Below, piece by piece: positions 11,269 through 40,643 of a stretch of 55,557 bases of DNA; position 1 is the first letter of the stretch, and every line of letters starts with the position of its first letter. Source of the DNA: Holophagae bacterium (GTDB lineage: Bacteria; Acidobacteriota; Holophagae; Acanthopleuribacterales; Acanthopleuribacteraceae); NCBI GenBank assembly GCA_029263455.1, contig JAJCXM010000036.1:1-55557 (forward strand), given 5' to 3'. The translations under genes and the position numbers were made by a program. The notes beneath the pieces are model-generated. The model made no database searches. It saw only the letters and a list, made by a program, of their open reading frames with translations, and was not told where the DNA came from.

Positions 11269-12788
11269 TGTGTTGGCCCTCCCACTTTGAAAAAGTAACC
11301 AGCACGTTTGATACGCCCTACACGATCTTTTGCCCTTATTTGCAACATGTAGTGGCCTGTTTCTGGGAAGATGATTTGGTCAGACCGCTCTTTGCCGCCT
11401 TGCGAAGGACTAAATTCACCCGTCAAAGTAACGCGTTGATCTGCTTTCGAAACGCGTAAGATCCCTTCTTCATCTGCCGCAACATCACATGTCGTGTCGG
11501 TCATAGTTGACCACTTAGACATGTGCATCTTATAGCTCCGATCCCCAATGCCACTATGTTCGTCAGTCAGTTCGACTCGAATTGCGGCTCCAATCGGTAA
11601 CTCATTGGCCTGGTCTCGCCTTGCCGCTTTCCCATCAATAAATACGGAAATGGAGGGCCGCTTTCGATCAAAGCCCAAGGGCTGTTCTTTCGTCACCGTA
11701 TTGCCAACGCGGTCTGTAGCCCGAAGATATAGGCGAGAGCGGTGGCTGCTTACCCTAGACACGCCGGCATGCCAATTTGATTCGTTTCTGGACCAAGCGT
11801 ATTCACTGATGCCAGACAGATCATCCATAACTTCTATGATGGCAATAGCCGTCTTTTTTCGATGCCAAGCTATCCCATTTGCGTCAATAAATTGGGCGTT
11901 CGGGTATTCAATCTGAAACGTGGGCGCGTGCCAATCTGTCGAAAACATGAGTGGCTCTGCCTGACTCTTGTTTCCGCAAGCATCCGTTGCTGTCAGCTCA
12001 ACGCGATGTGCACCCAATTCTTGGGGCGGTTGAATGCTCGGTTTAGATGTTTTTGCGCCATTCAAAAAGAAATTGACCGATGCGACCCCGCTTTGGGCGT
12101 CGTTGACCACCGCTTTGATTTCAGCTGCGGGCGAAAAAATTAACGCGTTTTTGACGCGAATCGAAGGACCAAATGTTTCGATTTGTACACGAGGCGCCAA
12201 ATCGTCCACACTAATAGGTGCATAATTGAATTCGCTGCGATTTCCTACGCCATCGAAGGCTTCTGCTTTGATTTCAAGGGACGTTCCGCTCTCGATGGTC
12301 AACGTGTGCACCGCATTGAGGAGGTCATTGCCCGTTTGTAAGGTCATTTGTTGACTGCGTATACCGGAGCCTGTGTCCAAACAAGAGAGATGGGCTTGAG
12401 CCCCAGCAGCAACCCAGAAATGACCGTCCTTGCCAGGAACGGGCTGAGGAGAGATTTCCACGCTGACGTCGGGCGCTAGGTCATCGATGCGCACCAAGAG
12501 ATTGAGTTCGGTAGACGAACGCCCAAGCTTATCCGTCTGTCTAATTGAAAGCTGGTGATCACCAACGGTAGGAGCCGTAACTGGATGGGTTGCCGCCCCA
12601 AATTCTTGACCGTCCCACGCCAATTCCAGCGTTGCGTCCACAATGAAACCTTCAAATTCTAACTGCTCACTGGGTGCCGCCCAAACAGTCTCGGCCTCAG
12701 TTTTCTGAATCGCCGGCTCGTCGTATATTAACGGTTTCCACCAGCTGACTACTATAAGAAGCGACAGTGGGTAATAATGCAGATTCAT
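11265..12788 (-). CDS. Exported Ig-like/OmpL47-repeat protein
   Basis: 507 aa; ATG at 12788 with GGAGG upstream. The start lies inside the kinase gene: the first 92 bases overlap the kinase 3' end in another frame, and the 3' end overlaps the LysM-FecR start by four. Residues 1-20 act as a signal peptide. The rest is four or five Ig-like repeats of about 90 aa, recognised by recurring VxDxxSGI and AxDxxGN signatures (NDAQSGVASVNFFLNG, DACGNKS, DDLSGISEYAWS, TDRVGNT, DEHSGIGDRSYK, AKDRVGR). OmpL47-type repeats are typical of surface or periplasmic adhesin-like proteins. No enzymatic motif. Confidence 0.8.
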   Translation of the reverse strand: MNLHYYPLSLLIVVSWWKPLIYDEPAIQKTEAETVWAAPSEQLEFEGFIVDATLELAWDGQEFGAATHPVTAPTVGDHQLSIRQTDKLGRSSTELNLLVRIDDLAPDVSVEISPQPVPGKDGHFWVAAGAQAHLSCLDTGSGIRSQQMTLQTGNDLLNAVHTLTIESGTSLEIKAEAFDGVGNRSEFNYAPISVDDLAPRVQIETFGPSIRVKNALIFSPAAEIKAVVNDAQSGVASVNFFLNGAKTSKPSIQPPQELGAHRVELTATDACGNKSQAEPLMFSTDWHAPTFQIEYPNAQFIDANGIAWHRKKTAIAIIEVMDDLSGISEYAWSRNESNWHAGVSRVSSHRSRLYLRATDRVGNTVTKEQPLGFDRKRPSISVFIDGKAARRDQANELPIGAAIRVELTDEHSGIGDRSYKMHMSKWSTMTDTTCDVAADEEGILRVSKADQRVTLTGEFSPSQGGKERSDQIIFPETGHYMLQIRAKDRVGRIKRAGYFFKVGGPTQ

Positions 12789-14637
12789 TTAACTCCTCCA
12801 GCTCGATAGAGCGATAGGTCCATAGAGTCGATGGTTTCAGGGCAGAAAGTAATTCAACCAGTCCAACAGCGTCACCTCGAAGATCCGGATCCTTTTCAAT
12901 CAAGGACAGAATGATATTGTTTAGCTGATCAGATAATCTCGGGCTCAGTTTTTGGGGTGGCTCGGGCAAGTTGCGCACGGTTTCTAGCATCACATCACGC
13001 ACAGATTTGCCAGTGAACGGTAGCCTGCCAGTAATGCATTCATATAAGAGCACACCCAGCGCAAACAGATCGCCTTGTTCACTGAACCCCTGGCCGGTCA
13101 GCGTTTCCGGGGGTAAATAGCCTGGGGTTCCAAAAACCTGGTCTCGGTCAGCATGGAGCGAAGTCATTAGCGCGGAAATACCAAAATCCGAGATCTTGAT
13201 CTCGCCCTCGTGACCCAAAAGCACGTTTGCTGGTTTGATATCTCGGTGAACGATTTTCTTGTCATGTGCCGCTTGTAGTCCACGCGCTACAGCAAGTCCA
13301 ATCTGAATCGTATCGGATTCCGATAAGGGACCCTGTTTTCGCAAGTAACCCTCTAAGGTGTCGCCATCAATAAACTCCATGGCAACAAACGAATAATCCG
13401 GAGTATCTTCGACGTCAAACACGCCCACCACATTATCGTGACGCACACTGGCCGCGCTCACCGCTTCACGAACAAGTTGGGACGTGTGTTTATGAGTCGC
13501 TCCATCCCTGTCATCGTCAATTTTTATCGTCTTTAAGGCAACGGATCGCTTTAATTTCGGGTCCCAGCCCTGGAACACCGTTCCCATGGCACCAGCCCCT
13601 ATTTGCTTTATGACTTGATAACGTCCCAGCGCGACATTTTCGATTTGTCGTTTATCTTTCGCATGCTGGCGCAATGCGGCGAAGGCTTTCCGCAGATCAC
13701 CGATCTCATCGCCTCGTTTGGTCTGTTCACCATCTAACAAATCGCTGTGTTCCAGTATCAACATTCGCAAGGGTCTAATGACACTGCGAAAAGCCGCAAG
13801 TGTAAGTAACGCCACCAGTAGCAATGCTAATCCAGCCGCTCCCAAAGAATGACGACGCATCGTATAAGCGACGGCTTCGGCAACCTTGATTGGTTGCCAG
13901 GACACGATTGTCCATGATGCCAGATCGATAGGCGCAAAGGCACCTAAAAGCTTCGCACCATGCTGACCTTCATAATGTCCCGCCCCAGACACCTGGCCCG
14001 ACACCGCTTTGGCAGCAAGATCCGCAGGAATGCTTCCCGCTCCTGTGCTTTGTAACAACGTATGCTTGCTCGCATCTAATAGGGCGAGGTGCGCTTCTTG
14101 GCCTAACTCCTTGGGTTCCAGGTACAAACCTAAAGCGTCAGCCTGGAAGACTGCCCGTATCTCACCATGTGCCCTCTGAATCTCCTCAACGACAGTTAGG
14201 TAACTAATCCCATTGCTAGTCGCTATGTTCAGATTCGGCGGCGCATTTCTTAGTACGTCTATAGCGTCTTCTTGTGCTCCGGGCATTTGAGCGCGCAAGA
14301 CTTCCGTGCCGTCTGGTGCGTAAATTCCTACTGCGATCACCTTTATTGAATCATCGACGGACAGAATTCCCTTTAACTGTTCCTGACTATCCGTCGACTG
14401 CGGTTCAGCAAGGGCCGGATGATCTGCAGCAGCTTTCACTAATTGTCGGCGAACCTGCAAGAAAGCATCGACTCGTGATGAAGTAGCAGACGCATTGACA
14501 GCATGCAGCCGCAGAACCTGTTCCGTAAACGCTTCTCGATTGATTTGGATCAGGCTAAATGTCACCCAAGCCAATGGAACAAGTGCAACGAGGACCAAGG
14601 CCACGATAACTTTGGTCAAGAGAGAAGTTTTCATCAT
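12697..14637 (-). CDS. Transmembrane Ser/Thr protein kinase with Cache and HAMP domains
   Basis: 646 aa. Domains in order: TM1 (8-29), a periplasmic Cache-like sensor (about 35-250), TM2 (about 266-285), HAMP (286-335), then a Hanks-type kinase (about 338-600). The kinase has the glycine loop GAGAMGTVF (347-355), K369, catalytic HRDIKPAN (464-471), DFG (484-486) and the activation-segment end GTPGYLPPE. All catalytic residues are present, so it should be active. Sensor, HAMP and kinase are arranged as in a chemoreceptor or histidine kinase, which is uncommon for Ser/Thr kinases, whose sensors are usually C-terminal. First gene of the unit with the Ig and LysM-FecR genes, which may supply its ligand or envelope contact. 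Confidence 0.9.
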   Translation of the reverse strand: MMKTSLLTKVIVALVLVALVPLAWVTFSLIQINREAFTEQVLRLHAVNASATSSRVDAFLQVRRQLVKAAADHPALAEPQSTDSQEQLKGILSVDDSIKVIAVGIYAPDGTEVLRAQMPGAQEDAIDVLRNAPPNLNIATSNGISYLTVVEEIQRAHGEIRAVFQADALGLYLEPKELGQEAHLALLDASKHTLLQSTGAGSIPADLAAKAVSGQVSGAGHYEGQHGAKLLGAFAPIDLASWTIVSWQPIKVAEAVAYTMRRHSLGAAGLALLLVALLTLAAFRSVIRPLRMLILEHSDLLDGEQTKRGDEIGDLRKAFAALRQHAKDKRQIENVALGRYQVIKQIGAGAMGTVFQGWDPKLKRSVALKTIKIDDDRDGATHKHTSQLVREAVSAASVRHDNVVGVFDVEDTPDYSFVAMEFIDGDTLEGYLRKQGPLSESDTIQIGLAVARGLQAAHDKKIVHRDIKPANVLLGHEGEIKISDFGISALMTSLHADRDQVFGTPGYLPPETLTGQGFSEQGDLFALGVLLYECITGRLPFTGKSVRDVMLETVRNLPEPPQKLSPRLSDQLNNIILSLIEKDPDLRGDAVGLVELLSALKPSTLWTYRSIELEELNESALLPTVASYSSQLVETVNIRRAGDSEN

Positions 14638-15160: not shown

Positions 15161-15781
15161 TCAGGCAGCTGATCTAACCCGTCTCAGCCAAATGGCCATA
15201 CCTGCTAAGCCAATGAACAAGGCCGCCAACCCCCAGCTTCCTAGTGCCGGCACCTGGCCCATACCACGCATGGAAATGAGCTGCATTGGATCAGCAGAAC
15301 CACCACCTGCACCCAAGGTGAAAAACCAAACACCATTCGGCGCTGCGGCACCATCCACAACCGTCCCTGAGCCGTAAGATTCTGTGAGGACCGAAAAAAT
15401 ATTAAAGTCGCCTCCTGTTCCCTCGATTCCATCCACAGGAGGGATGGTTCCCCAAAGATCCTGCGACGTCGGCTGACCAATAAGTTCCTGGGCAAAATCC
15501 AATACGCCTCCGTTTGTGTCCCACCTAACCGATACAAAATCAGCCAAGGTGAATGATCCATTTCCAGAAGAAGCACCACTAACCGTCACTTGCAAGTCCA
15601 GAACCGCAGGGTTCGGCAAAATGAAATCTGTATCTCCTGGGTTGGGTAAGAGCGTGTCCTCAAAGACGATATAGCCAATTGCAGTCGCTCCTGATTGTGC
15701 ATTCAAAAAAGTGAAATCAAATCGAATAGGCGCAGCAAAAAGATTAAGGGCAGTAAATATCAATAGCGCAGTACGACACAT
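15161..15781 (-). CDS. Exported protein with C-terminal IPTL-like anchor
   Basis: 206 aa from the ATG at 15781 with AGGAG spaced correctly; a longer in-frame start would precede the signal peptide (MCRTALLIFTALNLFAAP). The body is beta-rich and glycine/serine-rich (SGASSGNGSFTLADFVSV, PVDGIEGTGGDFNIF), resembling short PEP-CTERM-type secreted proteins. The last 30 residues are VPALGSWGLA, a membrane helix and RRVRSAA. This is an IPTL-CTERM-like tag, nearly the same start as in the protein at 1508-2386. Function unknown. Monocistronic, divergent from the ABM/ArsR pair. Confidence 0.8.
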   Translation of the reverse strand: MCRTALLIFTALNLFAAPIRFDFTFLNAQSGATAIGYIVFEDTLLPNPGDTDFILPNPAVLDLQVTVSGASSGNGSFTLADFVSVRWDTNGGVLDFAQELIGQPTSQDLWGTIPPVDGIEGTGGDFNIFSVLTESYGSGTVVDGAAAPNGVWFFTLGAGGGSADPMQLISMRGMGQVPALGSWGLAALFIGLAGMAIWLRRVRSAA

Positions 15782-15944
15782 AAATTCTCCTAGCAGACAG
15801 GAATAGTTACTTACTATAACACATACTAATTTTTGACTATGCAGTCCTACTAATACCCACAAATTATTGAGGCGAAGCTACCGCCGTTGGAGAACACTAG
15901 AAATTAGATTTATTACTTGTAAGAACAAACAAAAAGGCTTGATT

Positions 15945-16686: not shown

Positions 16687-18123
16687 TCAGCTGTCTTTGA
16701 CGTTTAGTTTCTCGACAAGGGACTGTATCGAATCCGCGATAGCAAAGCGCGGCGCGTCTAATTTTCGAAACAGTCTACGGGCTTTCCTTTGGATGCGCTC
16801 GTCACTGTGCGCTTCATTGCCGCTCGGATGAATCGATTCCATTGATGAACTCAAAATGGTTGATTCCAACCCGGTGAGTCCTCCTTGCGACGTGACCTCG
16901 TTAATTAAAACCCGTTTATCGAGATCGGAAAGTTTGAGTAAATTCTGCAGAAGCCGTTGAGCAGAAGCGATGGACACTTCCGGCTCCTCTTTAGCTTTCT
17001 TGGCCAGAACACGGTGGATCAGCCAGAGCTCCGCCGAAACTAAATTATCGGCAACTTGTCCGGCTATGCTGTCTCTAGGTACAAGTGATGCGCGACGTAT
17101 GCTCTTCTCGACGACCATGTCCCAGCTCCGCATTAACATAGGCGGGGTTTCAAATGCCGGGGTGGATGAAGAAAGTCCATGTCGTAGTTGCAAAGCAGAT
17201 AAATCTGGGTGTGGGCCCAACCGTTGGGCCATCCTTTCGCATACTTTATCAATCAGTGCCTGGTTGGGTTTTGCACTCATAAGTAAGATATGAGCGGCAT
17301 AGATCCCCAGCATAGGATTTTCGAATTTACTGGACAAAATATGATTCATCTCGTCGCGGCTTATCACTTTACGCCCTTGTAGCAGACCCAAGCGGGCCAA
17401 GTCTGTCAGTCGTCCACTGTCCCCGTGAACATCGAAACCGCGACCGATGTGGGCCATGTGGACCGAAGATCTTCGTATTGAGGGCCGACGAAGCTGAGTA
17501 GACCCAACGGGAAAGTTGTCCATGATCAAAAAGACCTGCGTCTGCCAGCCTGCAGACATGGTGATGAAAGATTCATATATGCCCATCGGTTCTGTATCAA
17601 CCCTCAATCTGTAAGTACCTGGATCAAGATCAAGGTTGATGGCCGCAAATTGATCGCCCAGATTTACATGCCCTTCGGTGATGCGACACATAAGAGCACC
17701 ATCTAAATGGTGAATCGTCACCACATCGGGCTCTAAAGGATGGTGGCGGTCCACGTCGCGCAAAAAGACGAACAATTGGCTCCCGTGACCGATCCGCCGG
17801 TCCACTTGACGCGACAAAGTCTGGGCAGGTCCCGCATGGTACTCATGACTGGTACTGGTGTCTGCCAAGGGTGCGGCACTCTCAAAATTCAAACGTTTAC
17901 CGACTAAGGAAACGGGGCCATCACGCACTTCAACCAACTCATCGTGCTGTTGTGACCCGGATCTGAATCGAACCTTATAGAGACCAGGTTCAACATCCAA
18001 ATTCAATTCACCCGTGCCGTTGGCAACGCGTTGCAGTTTCCAGTTGATCACAAATATCTCGGTTGCCCTATCGGCAGCACGAATATTCAAGTTCAATGCG
18101 CTAGAGCTTTGCGTGGCGATCAT
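16687..18123 (-). CDS. Caspase-operon protein of unknown function with two GLYKV-type beta-modules
   Basis: 478 aa, third gene of the hydrolase-caspase operon; its ATG lies 23 bases inside the end of the caspase gene. No signal peptide. Residues 8-74 and 114-201 look like two copies of a small beta-sandwich: LDVEPGLYKVRFRSG and LDLDPGTYRLRVDTE, each followed by a strand such as ELVEV or ESFITM. The C-terminal domain of the neighbouring caspase carries the same module (LLKAGLYKVVVTG). Residues about 230-478 are mainly helical, with no family I recognise, and the end is basic (RIQRKARRLFRKLD). The shared module suggests physical association with the caspase or a common ligand. No catalytic motif visible. 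Confidence 0.8.
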   Translation of the reverse strand: MIATQSSSALNLNIRAADRATEIFVINWKLQRVANGTGELNLDVEPGLYKVRFRSGSQQHDELVEVRDGPVSLVGKRLNFESAAPLADTSTSHEYHAGPAQTLSRQVDRRIGHGSQLFVFLRDVDRHHPLEPDVVTIHHLDGALMCRITEGHVNLGDQFAAINLDLDPGTYRLRVDTEPMGIYESFITMSAGWQTQVFLIMDNFPVGSTQLRRPSIRRSSVHMAHIGRGFDVHGDSGRLTDLARLGLLQGRKVISRDEMNHILSSKFENPMLGIYAAHILLMSAKPNQALIDKVCERMAQRLGPHPDLSALQLRHGLSSSTPAFETPPMLMRSWDMVVEKSIRRASLVPRDSIAGQVADNLVSAELWLIHRVLAKKAKEEPEVSIASAQRLLQNLLKLSDLDKRVLINEVTSQGGLTGLESTILSSSMESIHPSGNEAHSDERIQRKARRLFRKLDAPRFAIADSIQSLVEKLNVKDS

Positions 18124-19105
18124 TGGGAACCTCTATCAGTTTGGATCGTTGATTGCCTGTCACCACGACTTTGTAGAGTCCGGCCTTTAGTAGGATTTCC
18201 GTGTGACTATCTTGAGCCACAAATCGACTGATCTCAGCATTTCGGCCATCGGTTACCATAACTTCTTCGGCGCCGACGAAAGGATCGAGTTCAATGACAA
18301 TTTTCAGCCCCAACGACTGGGGACGCTTGGTAAAAACAAACTCTTTAGCGCTGTCAACTTTGATATCAGGTGCTTCTATGCGAATGTCGCCAGCTACGCG
18401 GTCGATGACATTGTGGATGTAGTCTTTAATTTTCTGACCCGTGATGCAGCCATCAGAATCCGGCGTCGCATGGTCCAGCGCTTCAAGTAAGGCCGTTGTA
18501 AATATGCCTTGGGACTGTCCATTGATGTCCCGTTCGCGCGATGCTTGGCCCCAGCCAGTGGCATAGGCGTAAAAGGTCTTAACCGTATTGGCTTGGGCAC
18601 TACCTTGTAACTCCGCAACCATGGGCGCTCGGATTTTGTGCAATGGGCTGGTGGTACGACAGCAGTCCATAATTAAGGCAATCTCCCGAAAGACCCAGTG
18701 TCGCCGGAACCATTCGGCATACGCGGTGGCGGCCACATGCCATGGCATGACTTGCGTTGCGTTGGCTGTATAGAGGGCAGATTCGTCTACAGACTGAGGA
18801 TCACTAAAGCCATGCCCAGCCATAAAGATGAACAGCCGGTTACCCAGCGGATCGTCATTGATACCTGCATCGACGAACGGTTGAAAGAGATTGGCAACCT
18901 CGTTGAGGATTGGATGCGCGTCGTTGACACCGTTGGGAGCAGGGAATTGTGATGATAACAAAACATGCACGTTGGCCGCTGGAACATCCCCACCATCCGG
19001 TCTCTTTAACCAGTCTGCGAAGCGATTGGCGTCGCCGCATGGACCCTGGAGGTCCGACAGGCCGGGATAGGATTGGATACCGATGACAACGGCAAAGTCC
19101 ATCAT
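18101..19105 (-). CDS. Caspase-like (peptidase C14) protein with C-terminal beta-module
   Basis: 334 aa; ATG at 19105 with a second ATG next to it, 2 bases after the hydrolase stop. Caspase p20-like fold: FAVVIGIQSYPG (strand 1), CGDANRFADWLKR, the catalytic histidine in FIFMAGHGF (H98), and the catalytic cysteine in ALIMDCCRTT (C149 in the D-x-C-R position; C148 is adjacent). A p10-like region follows (FYAYATGWGQ, SQGIFTTALLEALD). Residues 266-327 form a beta-module with GLYKVVVTG, also found twice in the downstream protein. Cytoplasmic. Bacterial caspase homologues act in regulated proteolysis and in defence or cell-death systems; that role is an inference here. Confidence 0.9.
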   Translation of the reverse strand: MMDFAVVIGIQSYPGLSDLQGPCGDANRFADWLKRPDGGDVPAANVHVLLSSQFPAPNGVNDAHPILNEVANLFQPFVDAGINDDPLGNRLFIFMAGHGFSDPQSVDESALYTANATQVMPWHVAATAYAEWFRRHWVFREIALIMDCCRTTSPLHKIRAPMVAELQGSAQANTVKTFYAYATGWGQASRERDINGQSQGIFTTALLEALDHATPDSDGCITGQKIKDYIHNVIDRVAGDIRIEAPDIKVDSAKEFVFTKRPQSLGLKIVIELDPFVGAEEVMVTDGRNAEISRFVAQDSHTEILLKAGLYKVVVTGNQRSKLIEVPNDRHAKL

Positions 19106-19107
19106 GA

Positions 19108-20574
19108 TTAGAATCCCCGTTGAATGATATGGCCAATACTCGCAAGCGTCGCCGCATCATTGTCAAAATCGCCGTGCTTGCGAGAAGCGGTCGTGCGTCC
19201 ATTACCGTCATCAGCGATGGACCAAGCCACGCGCGTGAGCATGTACTCACGAACGGAGGTCATGAAAAGGAAATCAGCGTCGTCATAAACGTTTGGGTCG
19301 TAATAACGCTGCATACCTAGAATCAGGGTATCTGAATTGTCCTCCAGTACTCCAGAAATAAAATACAGCAATGAATGTGGATAGATAATCGGCACCAACG
19401 TGTCTTTACGTTCCAAGTCATCACGCATCGTGAACATCCTTAAATTAGCGATTCGATGACGATGTTGGGCAAGGGTAACGCTGAACTTCTTAGCCGTAAT
19501 AGCCGGTGCTAGGAACATGACGTCGAATGTCTGACCGGCAGGCAACATTGCGTCGGCTGATTCAAGAAACTCTGATATGTAGACGGCGCCTGTACTGTGC
19601 CCCACCAAGCGAATTTTGCTTGGCTGACCCGCATTCATTTGGCGCGCCAATTCCGCAATCAAACACGAACCGCCATACACCTGGGTGTCAGGCTGAAAAC
19701 TGTCCGCCGTATCTTTTTTCATTAGGTCCCATATCAGTTGCCCAGCATTGCCTACGTAGTATTTGCGTAGTAGTTCTTCGACCAAAGTCGCATGAAATCC
19801 GTGATCGCGATCAGAGCGATAACGTTTGATGATTTGAGCAGCCAATACGACAATCGACTTAATAAATTTCGCCGTCGAGAGAAACCCTCGGGCAGCAGGG
19901 TCCGGCCGCTCAATATAGGTGTCTAACTGGTCCGGGTCCATCAGCGTTTCGCTTGAAGCCCTACTGCGTGCACTTCTCTCGCCTTTGGCCGCAGCTAACT
20001 CCTGTGGCGTTAGCAGCCCGTTCGAGATCTCATTCAAACTATTTACAAGCTGTAAATCTTGCGTCAATTCTTGTTCTAAACTCAGCTGCTCAAATCGGGT
20101 AAGTTCTAACGTGTCGCGGTAGTCAGGCTGAAGTTGATCCAGACCAAGGGGATCCTGTTCAAGCTGGCTCACCGCAAGACGTAGGTCGCTGTCATCGACT
20201 TGAGGCAGGGCTTGCGCGTTTCGGTCAGCGACTGACTGGCCTAATTTCCGTTTCACAATTCGAAGCAGTAGCTTGAACAAAAGTTTAAACAATCGCTCGC
20301 GAGCAATCTCAGATAGGTTGTTCTTAAGTATCTCGAAAAGGCCAGCTTCCCAAACAAAAAAGATGGGGTAAACGCCTGCCGCTTGATAAACGGGCAACAA
20401 CCGTTTGGCAATGTCTCTACCAGCCGCGTCATTAACCAAGCCACCGTGAAAATGAAGCAAAAGGCCACCTGGCTGTGCCAATGCACTCGATACCATCGTC
20501 TTGACGGACTGGGCTGTGGTCGCACCCGCCATCTTTCCATCTTTCAGGTGAATGATGTGATCGGAAAGCGCCAT
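19108..20574 (-). CDS. Alpha/beta-hydrolase-like protein (GHSTG)
   Basis: 488 aa, first gene of the caspase operon; ATG at 20574 with GGGG upstream. No signal peptide. LLLHFHGGLVN (38-48) supplies the HGG oxyanion-type motif and IRLVGHSTGAVYISEFL (321-337) the nucleophile elbow with S327; MFLAPAIT follows as the next strand. A C-terminal histidine (H467 in KHGDFDND) could complete the triad. Between them lies a long, mostly helical, charged insertion (about 90-290), much larger than a usual lid. The substrate is unknown: a lipase, esterase or peptidase are all possible. The gene spacing of 2 bases to the caspase gene shows a tight operon. Two abutting dyads precede it. Confidence 0.8.
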   Translation of the reverse strand: MALSDHIIHLKDGKMAGATTAQSVKTMVSSALAQPGGLLLHFHGGLVNDAAGRDIAKRLLPVYQAAGVYPIFFVWEAGLFEILKNNLSEIARERLFKLLFKLLLRIVKRKLGQSVADRNAQALPQVDDSDLRLAVSQLEQDPLGLDQLQPDYRDTLELTRFEQLSLEQELTQDLQLVNSLNEISNGLLTPQELAAAKGERSARSRASSETLMDPDQLDTYIERPDPAARGFLSTAKFIKSIVVLAAQIIKRYRSDRDHGFHATLVEELLRKYYVGNAGQLIWDLMKKDTADSFQPDTQVYGGSCLIAELARQMNAGQPSKIRLVGHSTGAVYISEFLESADAMLPAGQTFDVMFLAPAITAKKFSVTLAQHRHRIANLRMFTMRDDLERKDTLVPIIYPHSLLYFISGVLEDNSDTLILGMQRYYDPNVYDDADFLFMTSVREYMLTRVAWSIADDGNGRTTASRKHGDFDNDAATLASIGHIIQRGF

Positions 20575-20597
20575 TCCAGCCCCTTTTCATCTTTTTT

Positions 20598-20633
20598 TAG
20601 AATTATCGTATTCTACACACTATACAATAGTGT
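20598..20633. promoter_or_regulatory. Two abutting perfect dyads upstream of the caspase operon
   Basis: TAGAAT-N6-ATTCTA (20598-20615) and ACACTAT-N3-ATAGTGT (20617-20633) are both perfect inverted repeats, one base apart, 24 bases upstream of the first start codon of the hydrolase-caspase operon. On the minus strand they also contain -10-like hexamers (TAGAAT, GATAAT). This layout suits an operator pair overlapping the promoter. The protein that would bind is not known. Confidence 0.5.
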
Positions 20634-20739
20634 TACAGATGAACAAACACAACCCCGAAAGGACGAAAATGGGCTGACCTCAATGCTTATGTTTCACAAG
20701 TTAAGGGAATTCGATGATCGCCGACTCGGCTGACGTGTT

Positions 20740-23136
20740 CTAGGGGCTTGGTTGGGCGGCGAGATCTGAGCGCAGACTTCTTGATTCTGCCTCCAAAATT
20801 TCAGCGTCATGGGCGCGACCGGCGCCCCTAAGTACAGTTACGACCAAGTCCATACAAGACAGCGTGAATGGATGCGCCTGGCCCATTGCTTGTCGGCTAC
20901 GTTCCACCAATTCGGACCCACGTTCAGCCGCTTGATCAAATTCACCACGGTCATAAAGGATTTTTACCAGCGCCCACATGGTCTTAAGGCAAAACGGATG
21001 GTCGCTACCCAGGCCCTTAAAACAACGATCGATTAGCTGAGTCAATTGCTCTTTGGCTTCCTCTGTCTTGCCGGATTTTCCCAAGGTATAGGCTAAATTG
21101 AACATGCCGAACAAGCGATCTGGATGATCCTCACCCAAAATCTTCTGCTCAAGCGCAACCACGTCTCGTAGTACGGGGAGCGCTTCATCAAATCTTTGTT
21201 GCTGAGAAAGTACGACCGCCAAAGAGTTCATCAGACTAATGGTCTCGCGATGTGCTTTTCCATATCGGGCTTGAGCAACTTCAAGTACCTCGCGCAGTGT
21301 TTCTTCCGCCTCAGCATATTGTCCGAGTGACGTTAAAGAACTGGCTAGCGAGTTGACAGCAGCCACGGTTTGAGAGTGGTCTGGGCCCAATACCCGACGA
21401 CTGGTAACGATCAAATCTCGATAAAGCGAAACGGCCTCGTCCAATCGGCCTAAAGCCATGAGCGAATGCCCATAACCCATCATTGCCACCAGATGATCTG
21501 GATCTTCGACCCTTGCGGCCAGGCGGTCCATTTCGATGATCGCGCTTTGTAGCTGTTCTGCCTCTTCATAACGGCCCATTGAATAGAGCGTGTCAGCTAA
21601 ATTGTTTTGTATGTCTAGCGTTTGTATGTGACTGGCACCCAGTATCCGGGTCGACCGCCTTAGCAAATCGCGCTGCAGAACTAAGGCCTCATCGAATCGA
21701 CCAAAAAAACACGTGGCAGTTGCCACATTGTTAGCCGCAATGAGTGTTTGGAGATGGTCCGCGCCGAACACACGTTGACTGGTCGCCTGTAATTCTGTAG
21801 CTACTTGATAGGACTCCTCGTAAAGACCCAAAGCGAGCAGCACAAGGAATAATTCACTGCGGGTAGTTAATGTCTGCTCATGGTTGGGTCCCAGTTGGTC
21901 ATTTCTGATGCGAAGGGCTTCGTTCAAATGTTGTTGGCTTCTTTTATAGTCACCAAGCGCGTGATACACACTGCCGAACGACTGATGAAGATCCCCGCGA
22001 ATATCTGGATATGCTTCGAAATCACGGTCTATATCAGGAGCCGTGTCGTTGAGCAGGTCGATCACCTTGAGATCGATACCTGCGTTGCGCGGATCCACCT
22101 CGATTAGCATGTCCTGCAAAAAGCGGTTGATTTCTTGTGACGCACGTACGGCTTGTCGGGCCCGGTAAAACCCGATTGAGGAAAGGACCGTACCCAAAAC
22201 CAACACCAAAACGAATGCCGCCATCGCCCATCTACGCAAGTGCCTTTTTGGTTTTTCGATGATCCAACGAAGTCGGGTCGCGCATTCTTGTGCGGTCATT
22301 CGTTGTGCCGGTGATTCGCTCTTTTGACGCAGGATTAACCGAGTCAGGTCATCGTCCAGACCCTTGATTTCCACCGTTTCACCATTCATAGCTCGCCACA
22401 ATAGCGCTTCCTCGGTGAGACCAGCCGGATAAGGATTGCTATTGGTAAATAGTTCCTGCATCAATAGACCGAACGAGTACATGTCACTGGCTGGCGAGGC
22501 TGGCTCTCCACGTGCCTGTTCGGGACTCATATAACGAATGGTCCCCTTAATGGTGCCTAGCTTGGTTTTGAGCACAGCAGACATACTTTCGGTGAGTTTT
22601 TCTTGACCAAATGGCAACATCTCAAGAGTTGGGGCATGTTGATCTACCTTGGAACTAGCTAAACCGAAATCGAGGATTTTGATTGTCCCGTCATTGGTTA
22701 ACATGATGTTCTCGGGTTTGAGATCGCGATGGGTGACACCGCCGGCATGTGCAGCCGCCAAGGCTTTGCAAATATCAAGCACCATGCGCAGCTTTTCGGA
22801 AAAACGATGACTGCGTTTCATCCCCTCGCGTAGATTGACGCCTTCCAAGAGCTCCATGACGATGAAGTCGCCTTCTGGTTGCTGGATCAAATCATAGAGA
22901 CGACAAATGTTGGGATGTTCGAGCTTTGATAGGATCTTGGCTTCGTGAAGCAATCTTGCCTGGGCATGCTCCATTAGGCGCCGGTCGCGATGTACGGCCT
23001 TAACCGCTACTCTGCGTTCGAGCTTTTCGTCGTAGCCGACGTAGACTTCACCCATTCCGCCCGCGCCCAGGTGGTCCACAATGCGGATCGGACCGATATT
23101 TGTACCAAGAAGTGGATCCAATTCATCTTCCGTCAA
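20740..23136 (-). CDS. Ser/Thr protein kinase with C-terminal kinesin-light-chain-type TPR array
   Basis: 798 aa; TTG start at 23136 with an in-frame stop just upstream and no clear ribosome site, so the exact start is unsure. Hanks kinase at about 17-290: glycine loop GAGGMGEVY (24-32), K46, HRDLKPEN (136-143), DFG (156-158), GTIRYMSPEQ. A 35-residue insertion sits between DFG and the activation-loop end. One membrane helix (303-323) places the C-terminal half outside the cytoplasm. Residues about 350-798 hold nine or ten TPRs of the KLC type, about 42 aa each, with repeated LGxxHxxTL joints. TPRs probably bind proteins. Same strand as, and 165 bp upstream of, the caspase operon; functional coupling is possible but unproven. 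Confidence 0.9.
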   Translation of the reverse strand: MTEDELDPLLGTNIGPIRIVDHLGAGGMGEVYVGYDEKLERRVAVKAVHRDRRLMEHAQARLLHEAKILSKLEHPNICRLYDLIQQPEGDFIVMELLEGVNLREGMKRSHRFSEKLRMVLDICKALAAAHAGGVTHRDLKPENIMLTNDGTIKILDFGLASSKVDQHAPTLEMLPFGQEKLTESMSAVLKTKLGTIKGTIRYMSPEQARGEPASPASDMYSFGLLMQELFTNSNPYPAGLTEEALLWRAMNGETVEIKGLDDDLTRLILRQKSESPAQRMTAQECATRLRWIIEKPKRHLRRWAMAAFVLVLVLGTVLSSIGFYRARQAVRASQEINRFLQDMLIEVDPRNAGIDLKVIDLLNDTAPDIDRDFEAYPDIRGDLHQSFGSVYHALGDYKRSQQHLNEALRIRNDQLGPNHEQTLTTRSELFLVLLALGLYEESYQVATELQATSQRVFGADHLQTLIAANNVATATCFFGRFDEALVLQRDLLRRSTRILGASHIQTLDIQNNLADTLYSMGRYEEAEQLQSAIIEMDRLAARVEDPDHLVAMMGYGHSLMALGRLDEAVSLYRDLIVTSRRVLGPDHSQTVAAVNSLASSLTSLGQYAEAEETLREVLEVAQARYGKAHRETISLMNSLAVVLSQQQRFDEALPVLRDVVALEQKILGEDHPDRLFGMFNLAYTLGKSGKTEEAKEQLTQLIDRCFKGLGSDHPFCLKTMWALVKILYDRGEFDQAAERGSELVERSRQAMGQAHPFTLSCMDLVVTVLRGAGRAHDAEILEAESRSLRSDLAAQPSP

Positions 23137-23428: not shown

Positions 23429-24187
23429 TTACTTTTTTGGAATCGACTTCTTGAGGACAGCTTTACGTTTAGATTTCACTTCCTTCAATAGTTGACTGGT
23501 GCTGGTTTCAATCTTTTCGATGTCAAACAGATGCCATGTCGTAGAAAGCTCGCCTAAGTTGCGATCCAGGTTTCGTAGAAAGAGTTTGGATTCTACTGGG
23601 TCTCGGCGTTCAATGAATCGCCGATATCCGCTGATAGTATTTAAATCATTAAGTAGGACCATGGCTTTGTTCGGAATCTCCGGCGCGTTCTCTGATTCCT
23701 CGTTGTGGCACTGTTCGCATACCTCTGCGACCGTATTGACATTGAGTTTGCGAGAGTTGAGAGAACCGTGACACGTGACACAATTGGGGCCGCGCCTGTC
23801 AGCATCCTTCTTGGTCAAATGCTGGTAGTGATTGCTCTTAATATAAGCCTGCAGAAGGTCGTCGTGGCAGGTTCCACAAGTGTCAGGTATGTTCTGGAAA
23901 TCAACCGATCGCGACTTCGAATCAGGCGACATGCGTGAAACGTGGGCGGCTTCCTTGTCCTTGGCTTTGGCATTTCCACCATGGCAGTCGACACAAACAA
24001 TGTCTTCCTGTCCGTGGATAGAGGCTCGCCAATCCTGGAAATAGTCGTAGAGTTTCTTGTCGGTCACCAAAAAATCTTCTGATTTGTGGCAATCGATACA
24101 ACTGTCGCCGGTCACCGTTGTTTGCGAAAACAGTGGCAATCCGATAAGGCAGGCAACGAACACAATGAAGTGTCTTCTTTTAAACAT
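23429..24187 (-). CDS. Periplasmic pentaheme cytochrome c
   Basis: 252 aa with signal peptide (RRHFIVFVACLIGLPLFS). Five CxxCH haem-attachment motifs: C30 (CIDCH), C65 (CVDCH), C104 (CGTCH), C136 (CVTCH), C157 (CEQCH). Extra histidines between them (for example H58, H82, H120, H123) could be distal ligands. The C-terminal 80 residues lack haem motifs and are helical and basic, perhaps a docking surface. Last gene of the four-gene electron-transfer unit, 27 bp after the NrfD-like gene. It should carry electrons between the membrane complex and a periplasmic or outer-membrane partner not encoded here. Confidence 0.9.
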   Translation of the reverse strand: MFKRRHFIVFVACLIGLPLFSQTTVTGDSCIDCHKSEDFLVTDKKLYDYFQDWRASIHGQEDIVCVDCHGGNAKAKDKEAAHVSRMSPDSKSRSVDFQNIPDTCGTCHDDLLQAYIKSNHYQHLTKKDADRRGPNCVTCHGSLNSRKLNVNTVAEVCEQCHNEESENAPEIPNKAMVLLNDLNTISGYRRFIERRDPVESKLFLRNLDRNLGELSTTWHLFDIEKIETSTSQLLKEVKSKRKAVLKKSIPKK

Positions 24188-24214
24188 GATTCACCTTCTC
24201 TATCAAGTCAGGCT

Positions 24215-25432
24215 CTAAGCCAATTCGCTTGATTTGTACTTTAGGCGGTCCGTTTCGATCTTGATCGTGACTTTGGCTAGAATAGTAAATACCAGAATCC
24301 CAAACGCCCAGATTCCAAAACTCACCAAGCTCTCCGTCATGGTTGGTAAATACCCAAAGACTTCGCCAAGAGGGGTGGGCGTGAATCCAGGTATGATGAG
24401 ACCCATGCCTTTTTCAATCCAAATACCCACGATCGCCAAGACGCAGGCAATTGCCAGTAAATTGGAATTCTCTCTAAGCTTATGCACCATTAAGATCACC
24501 ACGGCGACGATCTCGATGAACAATGCGCCCCAAATCCAAGGAACCAAAGCGTTCTGCCCGTCTGCACCAAAGAACAGAAATTGAGCCGACGCTGAATGTT
24601 CGGTGGGCGCGTAGAATTCAGTGAATAGCTCTGTGCCAACCATGAAAAGATTGATTTGAAGGGCGACGGCTGTGATCAGAGCCAACAGTTTCTGTACGCT
24701 GGTATTAACTTTGAAATCCGTTTCTCGGTCTATGACGCGAAAGGCCAGGACCATAAATGCGGGACCGGCAGTAAAGGCTGATGCAATAAAACGGGGACCA
24801 AGAAGTGCTGTGTTCCAAAAAGGACGACCTGGATTGCCAATGAACAAGAATGCAGTCACCGTGTGAATGGATATAGCCCAGAAGATAGCGATAAGGATTG
24901 CGGGAAAATAGACGCGAATATCGGGTTTCTTTCCCATATATCGGTGGTAGGTGATGTACCACGGAATGGTGATATTCAGAAATAGATAACCCGACAAAAC
25001 CACAACGTCCCAGGCCAACATAGATTGTGGCCAATTGAGACGTCCCACGAATGGAATCATGTGCCAGAATCGCAGTGGCTGACCCAGATCAACGGTTACA
25101 AACAACATGCACATGAGGCATGCGGCAACAGCCACGCCCTCCGCCAGCAAAACCACAGATCGAGCAGCTTGATTATGAAAAATATAGGCGGGGATAACCA
25201 ACATGACTGCGGCAGCCGCCAATCCCACAAGAAAGGTGAAGTTCGCGATATAGATGCCCCAAGACACTTGATCGCTCATTCCGGTAACGATGAGACCATT
25301 TGTAAACTGGTTCCAATAGGCAATAGCGCCGACCAAACAGACTGCAATCAGACACGATAGCCACAACCAATAGCGGCGGCTCCCTTGAAACGCCTCCTTG
25401 GTGCAATCTTTAATGAATTGAATTCCGCTCAA
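24215..25432 (-). CDS. NrfD/PsrC-family quinone-interacting membrane subunit
   Basis: 405 aa from a TTG at 25432. The choice rests on a strong GGAGGAGGG just upstream, which begins directly after the stop of the Fe-S gene; an in-frame TTG at 25465 would overlap that gene and lacks a ribosome site. About ten membrane helices with the NrfD landmarks: SWGIYIANFTFLVGLAAA, LGQPLRFWHMIP, MLAWDVVVLSGYL, a SIHTVTAFL helix, and EKGMGLIIPGF near the end. Members (PsrC, DsrP, ActC/F, HybB-like) oxidise or reduce quinol at the membrane surface and contact a four-cluster Fe-S subunit, here the upstream gene. It binds no haem itself. Confidence 0.9.
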   Translation of the reverse strand: MSGIQFIKDCTKEAFQGSRRYWLWLSCLIAVCLVGAIAYWNQFTNGLIVTGMSDQVSWGIYIANFTFLVGLAAAAVMLVIPAYIFHNQAARSVVLLAEGVAVAACLMCMLFVTVDLGQPLRFWHMIPFVGRLNWPQSMLAWDVVVLSGYLFLNITIPWYITYHRYMGKKPDIRVYFPAILIAIFWAISIHTVTAFLFIGNPGRPFWNTALLGPRFIASAFTAGPAFMVLAFRVIDRETDFKVNTSVQKLLALITAVALQINLFMVGTELFTEFYAPTEHSASAQFLFFGADGQNALVPWIWGALFIEIVAVVILMVHKLRENSNLLAIACVLAIVGIWIEKGMGLIIPGFTPTPLGEVFGYLPTMTESLVSFGIWAFGILVFTILAKVTIKIETDRLKYKSSELA

Positions 25433-25446
25433 GGACAGCCCTCCTC

Positions 25447-26376
25447 CTAGTCGGCGTAATACCAAAACTTGGGTTCGGTGTTGAGGTCCTCTTTGAGTCT
25501 AAAGACCTTCTTGTTGGCCAGGATGTAGCGAATCTCGCTATCGGGATCCAGCAAGTTTCCAAAAACCCGCGCCCCTGTCGGGCAGGCTTCCTGGCAGGCA
25601 GGCAATTGCTGTTTGCGAACGCGATGAAGGCAAAACGTGCATTTTTCCATGACACCTTTTTCACGAGGACGATTACTCAGATAGTGAGTCTGTGTGTTTA
25701 AACTTTCGGCAGGTATCACCGGCTCATTCCAATTGAATTTACGTGCCCAGTATGGACAAGCCGCCTGGCAATAACGGCAACCAATACACCAGTCATAATC
25801 GATGACAACGATTCCGTCTGGCTCCTGCCAGGTAGCTTCAACTGGACATGCTTTGACACAGGGCGGGTTTTCGCATTGCTGACATTGGACTGGAAGGTAG
25901 AAATGGTCGGGCTTAGGAACTTCGCCAGCGTAGTAATGGTCGGCGTGTTCAAGATTCATGGTCCCGTCAGGTATTTCCAAAACGCGGATGTACTGAATTT
26001 CTGAGTCACGGCTTTGATTGTTTTCTTCGACACAAGCGCTGACACAGTCGCGATAGCCCCTGCATCGCGAGAGATTAAGCGCATATCCAAAGAGCGTGTT
26101 AGGCAGAGCCGAAGTAGCTTCAACTCGAACATCCTGTTTGTACTTTTCTTTGTATTTTCTTTCCATGCGCGCAAGTGTTTCGCCAACTTCATCTGGTGAA
26201 AGCCGAGAAAAGTGGTTCTGAAAAAGGCCGCCAAGTGTGTCGACAATGGTGCGCCGAGTATTCTCGTCGGTTAATTTATTGGCCGCCGCGGTCAGACTCG
26301 CTCCTCCCGCGGTCAAACCCAGAACCTGTAGTAACCTTCGGCGAGTAATCTGCTTTCTCGATTGTTTTTCACTCAT
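25447..26376 (-). CDS. TAT-exported four-cluster Fe-S protein (NrfC/DsrO-like)
   Basis: 309 aa. Twin-arginine leader TRRRLLQVLG (11-20) and an alanine-rich c-region. Cysteine groups for four [4Fe-4S] clusters: CRGYRDCVSAC (105-115), CQQCENPPCVKACP (165-178), CIGCRYCQAACP (197-208), and CTFC...CQEACP (246-266). This is the ferredoxin subunit that sits on an NrfD-like partner facing the periplasm and relays electrons to or from cytochromes. The 5' end overlaps the tetraheme gene by 8 bases and the 3' end abuts the NrfD gene, so the stoichiometric complex is probably co-translated. Confidence 0.9.
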   Translation of the reverse strand: MSEKQSRKQITRRRLLQVLGLTAGGASLTAAANKLTDENTRRTIVDTLGGLFQNHFSRLSPDEVGETLARMERKYKEKYKQDVRVEATSALPNTLFGYALNLSRCRGYRDCVSACVEENNQSRDSEIQYIRVLEIPDGTMNLEHADHYYAGEVPKPDHFYLPVQCQQCENPPCVKACPVEATWQEPDGIVVIDYDWCIGCRYCQAACPYWARKFNWNEPVIPAESLNTQTHYLSNRPREKGVMEKCTFCLHRVRKQQLPACQEACPTGARVFGNLLDPDSEIRYILANKKVFRLKEDLNTEPKFWYYAD

Positions 26377-26959
26377 GTTCTACTCCGCCGATGTCTTGAT
26401 GTACGGAAGTCGCCGTCAGACCCGTGCGTGCTTGGGGCGGCTGCCACGCCTCTCGCGGCTTAAAGTTAGGGCTGTGCACGTCATGACATTCGGCACAGGC
26501 TACGATCTGGCGAACGCCTGTCCAAGACTGGAGTCGTTTTCCGTGCGCCCCATACATGAAATCCGTTTGCTGCTGATAATGGCAATCCCCGCACAGCAGA
26601 TGAGATTCATCGAAAGCGATTAGTTGGCCTCCGCGATTCACTAGCATGTCGCGATTCTCGGAGTCGTGACACGCAAGACACCAGAATCGTTGCTTTCCGT
26701 GATCAAACGCCAAGTCATCGTGTTCGTCATCCAGTTTACGCATGCGCGGATTAGACTTCTGCGAGTCGTTATCGTGGCAATCACTGCATGGGTAGTAGCC
26801 GTTATCTTCTAGAACAGGAACGCGTTTGCTTACGACGAAAGGCGGAGGCGACTTGGCCTCTGTGTCGTCATTGTTCCAAGCAAAAGGGCCAGCGTCTAAC
26901 ACGAGACAGACGGTCGGTATGACCAAACTCACTGCCAACCAAACCAGTCTCTGGCGCAT
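26369..26959 (-). CDS. Tetraheme cytochrome c
   Basis: 196 aa; ATG at 26959 with GAGGTGG four bases upstream. An uncleaved or cleaved N-terminal hydrophobic segment (7-24) exports the protein. Four CxxCH motifs: C58 (CSDCH), C94 (CLACH), C123 (CGDCH), C155 (CAECH). First gene of the cytochrome / Fe-S / NrfD / cytochrome unit. A tetraheme cytochrome together with Fe-S and NrfD subunits matches Geobacter Cbc4-type and Qrc-like complexes, in which the cytochrome exchanges electrons with other periplasmic cytochromes. No Mo-bisPGD subunit is encoded nearby. A 14-bp dyad lies directly upstream. Confidence 0.9.
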   Translation of the reverse strand: MRQRLVWLAVSLVIPTVCLVLDAGPFAWNNDDTEAKSPPPFVVSKRVPVLEDNGYYPCSDCHDNDSQKSNPRMRKLDDEHDDLAFDHGKQRFWCLACHDSENRDMLVNRGGQLIAFDESHLLCGDCHYQQQTDFMYGAHGKRLQSWTGVRQIVACAECHDVHSPNFKPREAWQPPQARTGLTATSVHQDIGGVEHE

Positions 26960-36795: not shown

Positions 36796-38193
36796 ATGCC
36801 AGTATCGGACAGTACCCAGCGTACCCTTTCGCGCTTGTGGTTTACGCTCGCCGTGGGCAGTTTACTTTTACCGGGAATCCTAGCTTTACTCTTAGTTATC
36901 GCGCGCATGCCGCCATTCAGCAACTGGATCACCGATCCTTTGCTATTTAAGCGCTGTTTGGTCGTGCATGTTGTGCTGTCTCTTTTCGTGTGGTTCTGCG
37001 CCTTCCTGATGCTCATGTACTCACGATTACCTCGTGACCCTCGCTTCATCGGACAGGAAATTGCAGCGCTTGTATGCGCTTTCGGCGGCGTCGCTATGAT
37101 GGTAATCGCCGCGGGCATGCCGGGCTCTATGCCCATCCTGTCAAATTATTTACCGGTCATCGATCACCCACTCTTCCTAGGCGGACTGGTCATCTTTGCG
37201 ATTGGTATCGGACTACAAATTCTGCAGCCACGGCTCTTGCCAGGCGGGCCTGAGGCTGACAATACGATTATGCCAGGTATCGCACAGGCAGGGTTACGCG
37301 CTGCTGGCGTGGCGGTGCTCTTTGCATTGATCACGATCTGGGCTGCTTGGTGGAATACCCCGGGCGATTTGGGTGCCAATGTCTATTTCGAACACCTGTT
37401 TTGGGGGGGAGGGCACGTCTTTCAGTTTGCGAACACGTGTGGCATGTTGGTCGCTTGGACCGCACTTACCGTGTTCGCAACTGAACAATGGCCATGTTCA
37501 AGAAGAACCGCTTTTTGGCTCTTCTCATGTTTGCTGCTGCCCGTATTTGTCGCTCCCCTGCTCACCTTGTCTGGAACGACGACAGCCATATACCGGACGG
37601 TTTTCACAAGTCTCATGCAGTGGGGCATATTCCCGGTGGTGCTCATTTTCATGTTCATGTGTGGGCGACGATTCTTTGCCAGTGAAAAGCCAAGCCAGAC
37701 GCTCAAATCCGTTCGACTCGGGTTCCTGATAAGCGCCGGCCTGACGCTGCTCGGATTTGTCCTAGGTGCCTTAATTCGCGGATCCAATACATTAATTCCC
37801 GCCCACTACCATGCCAATATTGGCGCAGTAACCTGCGCATACATGACCCTGACATATGTTTTGCTGCCTGAGCTTGGTTATCGATTTCAATCGATGAAAC
37901 TGCGAGGCTGGGCACAATGGCAGCCAGCTACATTTGGATTTGGTCAGGCAATTTTCGCGTTGGGTTTTGGGTTGGCTGGCAGTTACGGCATGGGCCGAAA
38001 ACTGTATGGCCAAGAACAGTCAATTCAGCATTTAGGTGCCACCACAGGATTGGTTGTGATGGGCATTGGCGGCCTGATCGCCATCGTCGGCGGTATCACC
38101 TACCTCATTCTCACACTGCACGCCATTAAGCACCCTATTGAAGAGGTGCCCACAGCGGCCCACACACCACGAGAACGTCTCGCATCACGTTAA
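36796..38193 (+). CDS. Haem-copper-oxidase-like membrane protein lacking the CuB histidine pair
   Basis: 465 aa; GGAGG five bases before the ATG. Twelve or so membrane helices in the order of a haem-copper oxidase subunit I. Ligand positions retained: H58 in helix II (LVVHVVLSLF), H207 in WGGGHVFQFAN, and H337/H339 in the helix X motif PAHYHANIG. The helix VII HH that binds CuB is replaced (FVAPLLTLSG), so a complete binuclear centre cannot form. This matches accessory proteins next to NOR-like oxidases, such as Orf1 beside norSY-senC in ammonia oxidisers. It probably holds one or two b-type haems and could transfer electrons or assist assembly. First gene of the cluster, 22 bp before the small peptide. 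Confidence 0.75.
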   Translation: MPVSDSTQRTLSRLWFTLAVGSLLLPGILALLLVIARMPPFSNWITDPLLFKRCLVVHVVLSLFVWFCAFLMLMYSRLPRDPRFIGQEIAALVCAFGGVAMMVIAAGMPGSMPILSNYLPVIDHPLFLGGLVIFAIGIGLQILQPRLLPGGPEADNTIMPGIAQAGLRAAGVAVLFALITIWAAWWNTPGDLGANVYFEHLFWGGGHVFQFANTCGMLVAWTALTVFATEQWPCSRRTAFWLFSCLLLPVFVAPLLTLSGTTTAIYRTVFTSLMQWGIFPVVLIFMFMCGRRFFASEKPSQTLKSVRLGFLISAGLTLLGFVLGALIRGSNTLIPAHYHANIGAVTCAYMTLTYVLLPELGYRFQSMKLRGWAQWQPATFGFGQAIFALGFGLAGSYGMGRKLYGQEQSIQHLGATTGLVVMGIGGLIAIVGGITYLILTLHAIKHPIEEVPTAAHTPRERLASR

Positions 38194-38215
38194 ACGAAAT
38201 ATAGGGAGGTTTCTA

Positions 38216-38362
38216 ATGAGTCAAGACAAAAAACACCCACTCCAGAAACTCCTCGACAACCCATGGCTACTGTTGGCATTAGGCGTACTCATCCCAGTTC
38301 TCTCCTATACGGTTTGGGGCTGGGTTGAACTCGCCACGCTGGCGCCAGCGGCTCTGCCATGA
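38216..38362 (+). CDS. 48-aa single-helix membrane peptide
   Basis: Starts at the ATG at 38216 with AGGGAGG upstream; this is a better start than an in-frame ATG inside the previous gene. A charged N-terminus (MSQDKKHPLQKLL), then one membrane helix (LLLALGVLIPVLSYTVWGW) and a short tail. Its position directly before the CuA subunit suggests a small structural subunit, like subunit IIa of ba3 oxidase or CcoQ-like peptides. Assigned by position and topology only. Confidence 0.65.
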   Translation: MSQDKKHPLQKLLDNPWLLLALGVLIPVLSYTVWGWVELATLAPAALP

Positions 38363-38384
38363 GTCAGTCTAGGAGGAGACGGTT

Positions 38385-38909
38385 ATGAGTATTCATGTAC
38401 CTGACAAAGATTGGTTCAAAGCGCCATCCGGCGGTGAACGCATCTGGATTGCACTTTCACTCATCTGGTGCCTGATCATGTTTATCATGATGCCTGTTTG
38501 GCATTTCAAGGGTAAACAGAACAGCACTGGAGAAGCGTACCGCGTAGAGCCTGCCGCCTTTGTGGCCAGGGTCGAAGCCGCCATCAAAACCCACCAAGTG
38601 GGCGAAGAAAACGGAGTTCCAATCGTGGAACCTACACCAGGTGGCGACGCCTATTTGCTCGGGCAAATGTGGCGCTGGTACCCCATTCTCAAACTCAAGC
38701 AGGGCCAAAGTTACCGACTACATGTATCTGCTTTGGACCTTCAACATGGATTCTCGTTGCTGCCTGTCAACATGAATTTCCATATCCTACCGGGCTATGA
38801 CCACGTGCTCACTATCACACCCACGCAAGCCGGTGATTACCAGCTGATCTGCAACGAGTTTTGCGGCATTGGTCACCACCTGATGACCGGCAAGATCATC
38901 GTGGAATGA
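38385..38909 (+). CDS. CuA-type subunit II of a haem-copper oxidoreductase (NorS/CoxB-like)
   Basis: 174 aa; AGGAGG precedes the ATG. One membrane helix (20-41), then a periplasmic cupredoxin domain. The full CuA ligand set is present: H121 (LDLQHGF), C156, C160, H164 and M167 in CNEFCGIGHHLM. The short length and single helix are typical of B-family (ba3-like) subunit II. It would accept electrons from a soluble donor (cytochrome c or cupredoxin) and pass them to the next gene's haems. In NOR-like relatives (sNOR, CuA-NOR) this subunit is kept, so CuA alone does not show an O2-reducing activity. Confidence 0.9.
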   Translation: MSIHVPDKDWFKAPSGGERIWIALSLIWCLIMFIMMPVWHFKGKQNSTGEAYRVEPAAFVARVEAAIKTHQVGEENGVPIVEPTPGGDAYLLGQMWRWYPILKLKQGQSYRLHVSALDLQHGFSLLPVNMNFHILPGYDHVLTITPTQAGDYQLICNEFCGIGHHLMTGKIIVE

Positions 38910-38921
38910 GGAGGTTCGACG

Positions 38922-40619: not shown

Positions 40620-40643
40620 GCGAAGATTGAGGGAATCGTCACT

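Follow-up and report, generated by a model that had tools for sequence, protein, structure and literature searches.

The 55,557-nucleotide contig JAJCXM010000036.1 of a Holophagae bacterium (assembly GCA_029263455.1), whose full length is called the window here, carries on its reverse strand three closely packed genes (16687-20574) that we refer to as HYD, for an alpha/beta-hydrolase, CASP, for a caspase, and THIRD, for an adaptor-like partner protein. HYD and CASP are separated by 2 bp and CASP and THIRD overlap by 23 bp, so the open reading frame (ORF) coordinates bear out the layout given in a preliminary description of this DNA. A chance arrangement is excluded because distant genomes carry the same three genes, again in this order. 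Judged by hydropathy alone, without a dedicated signal-peptide predictor, none of the three proteins shows a membrane span or an N-terminus of marked hydrophobicity, which is consistent with the earlier statement that all lack a signal peptide.

The hydrolase, the caspase and their partner

HYD matched no family in Pfam. Its AlphaFold2 model (mean predicted local distance difference test score, pLDDT, 84.5; predicted template modelling score, pTM, 0.84) has an alpha/beta-hydrolase core, and based on this model HYD is a member of the alpha/beta-hydrolase superfamily. A plain Foldseek search with the model gave no PDB match at E 0.001, and a second structure comparison returned Z scores of about 10-11 to many alpha/beta-hydrolases, with LCAT, lysosomal PLA2 (LPLA2), PlaB, a B. 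subtilis lipase and the thioesterase TesA tied at the top. We therefore consider the fold secure but not the substrate class, because lipases, phospholipases and thioesterases tie in these matches.

The expected catalytic residues are in place. In an alignment of 85 hydrolases, the HGG motif (residues 43-45), the nucleophile S327 (codon 19594-19596) within GHSTG (325-329) and E388 are present in every sequence, D391 in 84 of the 85, and H467 (codon 19174-19176) in all 83 rows that are not truncated; the acid of the triad is E388 or D391. The preliminary description had recognized the GHSTG motif and also a large helical insertion, and the model agrees with the latter in placing helices at residues 94-253, of which the stretches 121-156 and 188-208 are poorly predicted (pLDDT under 50). 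This insertion is specific to the trio: between G78 and W282 there are 176-221 residues in all 12 trio hydrolases versus 33-50 in all 73 others. An arginine at position 205 of the loop is common to the nearest relatives (window, L021, L022 and L117). We rejected the idea of a universal caspase site in the loop, which is unalignable in the rhizobial copies.

CASP matched Peptidase_C14 of Pfam above the cut-off (E 2.6e-9; 37.6 bits, cut-off 21.4), and its dyad of H98 (codon 18812-18814) and C149 (codon 18659-18661), as named earlier, is invariant in the 12 caspases compared. Thus the catalytic residues of neither enzyme are degenerate across homologs. The EACC1-associated caspase model NF047832 scored 50.4 bits against CASP, far under its cut-off of 140. 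In PADLOC, only the generic "caspase" model matched CASP and no model matched HYD or THIRD, and the trio corresponds to no named PADLOC system.

The sole Pfam match of THIRD, bMG6, was sub-threshold. Comparison by hhalign of the CASP C-terminus with the THIRD N-terminus gave a probability of 95.5% (E 1.4e-8), versus 0.1% for a control pair, and by this sequence evidence the two beta-modules are homologous, as the preliminary description had proposed. The beta character of the CASP module is presumed from its homology to the modeled THIRD domain. The THIRD model, built from three sequences, is poor overall (pLDDT 49), with the first beta domain predicted better; it suggests a protein of two beta-modules with helices after them. 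The features of the locus are collected in Table 1.

Table 1. Coordinates of the operon features in the window
Feature	Coordinates	Strand	Basis
HYD, alpha/beta-hydrolase, 488 aa	19108..20574	-	ORF; AlphaFold2 model and conserved residues
CASP, caspase (Peptidase_C14), 334 aa	18101..19105	-	ORF; Pfam match
THIRD, adaptor-like protein, 478 aa	16687..18123	-	ORF; two beta-modules, then an all-helical part
HYD helical insertion, about residues 94-253	19816..20295	-	Model; only in trio-type hydrolases
CASP C-terminal beta-module, about residues 258-334	18104..18334	-	Homologous to the THIRD N-terminal module
THIRD beta-module 1, residues 10-75	17899..18096	-	Model, pLDDT about 80; hhalign match with the CASP module
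THIRD beta-module 2, about residues 116-225	17449..17778	-	Low-confidence model; weakly similar to module 1
THIRD helical region, about residues 235-472	16708..17421	-	Low-confidence model; core conserved as far as about residue 380
165-bp gap, upstream kinase gene to HYD	20575..20739	-	Sequence

The gap upstream of HYD is probably the site of the operon promoter; no consensus sigma-70 promoter was found within these 165 bp.

Recurrence of the trio and exchange of its enzymes

Conservation of the trio extends over several phyla. Ten loci hold all three genes in the same order: the window, L022 (Thiobacillaceae), L117 (a viral-type contig), and seven copies on rhizobial plasmids, namely L101 (Mesorhizobium), L103 and L112 (near-identical copies in S. 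meliloti), L104 and L105 (R. leguminosarum), L109 (R. gallicum) and L110 (Ensifer). Two further loci, L021 and L023, stop at contig borders, which in L023 cut HYD; L021 is consistent with a trio, as is L024 (Chitinophaga), which has frameshifted pieces of HYD, CASP and THIRD in trio order. In a tree of the 85 hydrolases, the 12 trio-type sequences form one clade with support of 100/100, which takes in Planctomycetota, Pseudomonadota and the window, and in which some of the rhizobial plasmid copies lie beside the planctomycete one. The survey of co-occurrence suggested in the preliminary description thus found a trio that is not limited to close relatives.

While the caspase and its partner stay together, the enzymes around them change. 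CASP-THIRD pairs occur without HYD in L102, L107, L126 and L127; the place of HYD is taken in L107 by an S8 subtilase and in L127 by a protein joining a phosphoesterase of the phospholipase C family to an astacin, and the next gene in L102 encodes an Endonuclease_NS-Trypsin protein. CASP and THIRD are fused in a single chain in L106 and L108, both of which have a metzincin gene upstream, in the slot of the exchangeable enzyme. The tail of THIRD varies as well, being Trypsin-PLD (phospholipase D) in L101, Trypsin-Endonuclease_NS in L109, pYEATS in L103, L105 and L110, and astacin in L126; domain scans recognized no enzyme in the tails of the window, L104, L102, L107 and L117. In addition, peptidoglycan hydrolases precede HYD in L103 (a lysozyme) and L110 (a CHAP/peptidoglycan-binding protein). 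A constant control unit combined with changing destructive enzymes is a pattern typical of conflict systems (cf. PMC7159879).

For HYD itself, 84,980 genomes were scanned, 237 relatives were reported and 80 loci were fetched. Most relatives in these 80 loci are multidomain chains: 35 have a papain-like (C1A) domain ahead of HYD, 20 consist of HYD-caspase, 16 of Amidase_2-HYD-caspase and three of Amidase_2-HYD. HYD and a caspase therefore share one chain in 36 loci (20 plus 16). A gluzincin-like gene with HExxH adjoins the HYD-caspase chains in all 25 loci checked, mostly directly downstream. The Amidase_2-HYD-caspase chains, mostly beside such a gene, are apparently undescribed as a unit; they are about 930-1080 aa long and come from L032, L034, L036, L039, L049, L050, L052, L055, L056, L064, L070, L072, L073, L074, L096 and L100. 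The papain-like chains lack a caspase and come from many phyla (L026, L033, L040, L047, L053, L079 and L095 among the 35). Neighborhoods of HYD-caspase chains also hold another protease of the caspase clan, a CHAT-domain protein with DUF7363 (L025:4708-6846, Pfam-checked in L025 only), and neighbors in L054, L066, L067 and L027 fall in the same cluster.

The distribution of the trio is patchy. THIRD was found in four of 247 genomes of the phylum of the window (one of them marginal) and in one of 369 genomes of the class to which the L022 genome belongs, and neither HYD nor THIRD was found in the single other genome of the same genus that was searched. We also considered a phage origin and rejected it, based on the lack of a match in 50,697 phage records; one viral-type contig does carry a trio (L117), and a search of viral contigs with a two-sequence alignment found no relatives of THIRD. 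In L117, two tyrosine integrases directly precede the trio, and DUF932-like and YqaJ-like genes, named by inspection, follow it. The PADLOC candidate defense pair PDC-M01A/B lies a few kilobases from the fused gene of L106. Mobile or defense contexts of this kind are seen in relatives only, and the defense island that the preliminary description suggested looking for is not present around the window trio, the base composition of which resembles its flanks.

The genes surrounding the trio in the window are of other kinds. A Ser/Thr kinase-TPR gene lies directly upstream (20740-23136) and was considered as a fourth component, an idea we rejected since it matches 78 places in the genome and is not seen beside other trios. 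The 78 places point to a large kinase expansion in this genome, and a second Ser/Thr protein kinase of the window is at 12697-14637. The gene at 15161-15862 encodes a protein whose end, by inspection, resembles a PEP/IPTL-CTERM sorting tail. A respiratory cluster occupies 23429-26959 and 36796-43696, with genes for multi-heme cytochrome, NrfD and Fe-S proteins, a COX1-like protein and cytochrome b. RoxA-like cytochrome genes are near caspase/THIRD loci of unrelated bacteria as well (L110:2911-5163 and L126:3261-5453), possibly by coincidence.

A proposed caspase-controlled effector operon and its alternatives

We favor, at a probability a little above one half (about 0.55), the interpretation that the trio is an operon acting inside the cell in conflict or programmed death, with an effector under caspase control, in which THIRD is adaptor-like, CASP is the activating protease and HYD is a gated, lipase-like effector. 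THIRD and CASP would form the control unit, joined into a complex via their common beta-module, and a trigger, perhaps phage or plasmid infection, would be received or relayed by THIRD and lead to activation of the caspase. Cleavage by CASP would then activate or release a destructive enzyme. In the window this would be HYD, a putative lipase- or phospholipase-like serine hydrolase that its long helical insertion, disordered in part, would keep inactive; once active, it may attack membrane lipids and cause cell death or arrest. That CASP cuts specifically within the insertion is a tentative suggestion, less certain because the loop sequence varies.

The preliminary description had envisaged a role in defense or cell death with a separate lipase-like effector. 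The pairing of a caspase with such an effector gains support from the fusions and the effector swapping, while defense and death are roles that we infer, and the setting of the window does not add to them. Several observations weigh against the interpretation as a whole. Around the window trio lie genes for cytochromes, NrfD, COX1 and kinases of proteins, with no defense genes among them, and the window is not a defense island. No sensor was recognized in THIRD, the model of which is poor, and THIRD appears dispensable in some lineages, because caspase-HYD fusions without it are common. The fold matches of HYD do not separate lipases from thioesterases, and no universal cleavage site is visible, because the disordered loop is unalignable across all trio members.

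A broader interpretation, which we consider possible but doubtful, is that these loci represent an undescribed class of mobile, modular caspase operons, in which a conserved pair of caspase and adaptor sets off exchangeable killers and so produces programmed lysis, as a bacterial equivalent of an initiator caspase that commands many executioners. The killers would include the gated alpha/beta-hydrolase, phospholipases C and D, nuclease, trypsin, metzincin and subtilase, with peptidoglycan hydrolases sometimes adjacent. If the favored model of the operon is correct, one conserved caspase-adaptor unit governs many unrelated killing enzymes, and every enzyme swap points to a probable bacterial caspase substrate, making caspase targets directly testable.

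The variable tails of THIRD admit a different assignment of the substrate, which we regard as unlikely. THIRD, not HYD, would be cut, as a pro-effector from which CASP frees the tail (trypsin, phospholipase D, nuclease or astacin), and HYD would be an independent effector. It is consistent with this that the tails are the most variable part of THIRD and include pairs of trypsin with an effector, and that CASP-THIRD pairs exist without HYD; however, five loci, including the window, have no recognized enzyme in the tail, and the trio-specific insertion of HYD would be left unexplained. The VMAP caspases of the vWA-MoxR ternary systems were reported in 2020 to be always accompanied by an alpha/beta-hydrolase gene (PMC7159879), and the trio could have descended from this pair as a stand-alone derivative. 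Such a descent is compatible with a caspase-controlled effector operon but rather unlikely, as no VMAP, vWA or MoxR was recognized beside the trio in the scanned neighbors of the window and its relatives, and neither caspases nor relatives of HYD occurred in the five VMAP loci sampled.

The remaining alternatives concern the target and the purpose of the enzymes, and we judge both to be improbable. The lipase, protease, nuclease and peptidoglycan hydrolase might together be a cocktail that strikes competitors or prey after lysis or non-Sec secretion, not a means of suicide. In keeping with this, some copies have peptidoglycan hydrolases or a fragment of a Tle1-like lipase nearby, and 16 of the 80 loci fetched carry Amidase_2 fused to HYD-CASP; yet the loci examined showed no recognizable genes for secretion systems or domains for delivery, the window proteins have no signal peptide by hydropathy, and delivered caspase toxins are unusual. 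Alternatively, the trio might be a housekeeping regulatory or stress module, for example for lipid remodeling under proteolytic control. Its chromosomal respiratory surroundings in the window, its flank-like composition and the lack of a defense island would be expected of such a module, but its patchy distribution, its plasmid and integrase contexts and the swapping of effectors would not.

Relationship to known systems

We found no name for the trio in the literature searched, from which subscription journals and preprints were mostly absent. Neither an NLR-like ATPase nor a CARD or gasdermin was recognized beside the window trio, and the activator is a caspase, unlike that of CARD-NLR/LypABC. 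In the latter, LypC is a trypsin-endonuclease protein, and phospholipases and endonucleases are named as alternative effectors (PMC13236601); THIRD of L109 ends in a trypsin followed by an endonuclease, the same domain order as LypC.

Amidase_2-metacaspases were noted in Polaromonas and others by the 2012 survey of prokaryotic caspases by Asplund-Samuelsson, the accessible portion of which makes no mention of a HYD domain between amidase and caspase (PMC3501461). The Polaromonas proteins of L050 and L055 do hold HYD at this position, and the presence of this domain between the known ends goes some way toward explaining an old puzzle about Amidase_2-metacaspases. They differ from the trio in being single chains without THIRD, often beside a gluzincin-like gene, and in having a short HYD that lacks the insertion and is outside the trio clade.

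The closest parallel by published description is Canu, in which a complex of CanB with a caspase bearing an Ig-like domain at its C-terminus activates a nuclease blocked by disordered insertions, and which protects E. coli from T4 (PMC12799240). Both are three-gene loci with a caspase, an actual or putative caspase partner protein and a separate effector; the Ig-like domain of the Canu caspase may correspond to the presumed C-terminal beta-module of CASP, and the gating insertions of CanC have a potential counterpart in the trio-specific insertion of HYD. CanC, however, is a metallo-beta-lactamase-type nuclease, whereas the window trio has an alpha/beta-hydrolase in its place, and no domain of the CanC type was found in the trio or its neighbors. 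By analogy, CASP and THIRD would serve as activator, with HYD as the effector that is gated, and the stretch of 176-221 residues, seen only in hydrolases that accompany this caspase, would make HYD a candidate protease-gated lipase, parallel to the Canu nucleases and to gasdermins. The genetic tie between a caspase and an alpha/beta-hydrolase is shared with the VMAP systems, which, in the part of the report available, have no third protein like THIRD (PMC7159879). Based on these comparisons, the trio belongs with the known bacterial caspase effector systems, among which the pairing of a caspase with an alpha/beta-hydrolase had already been described (PMC7159879).

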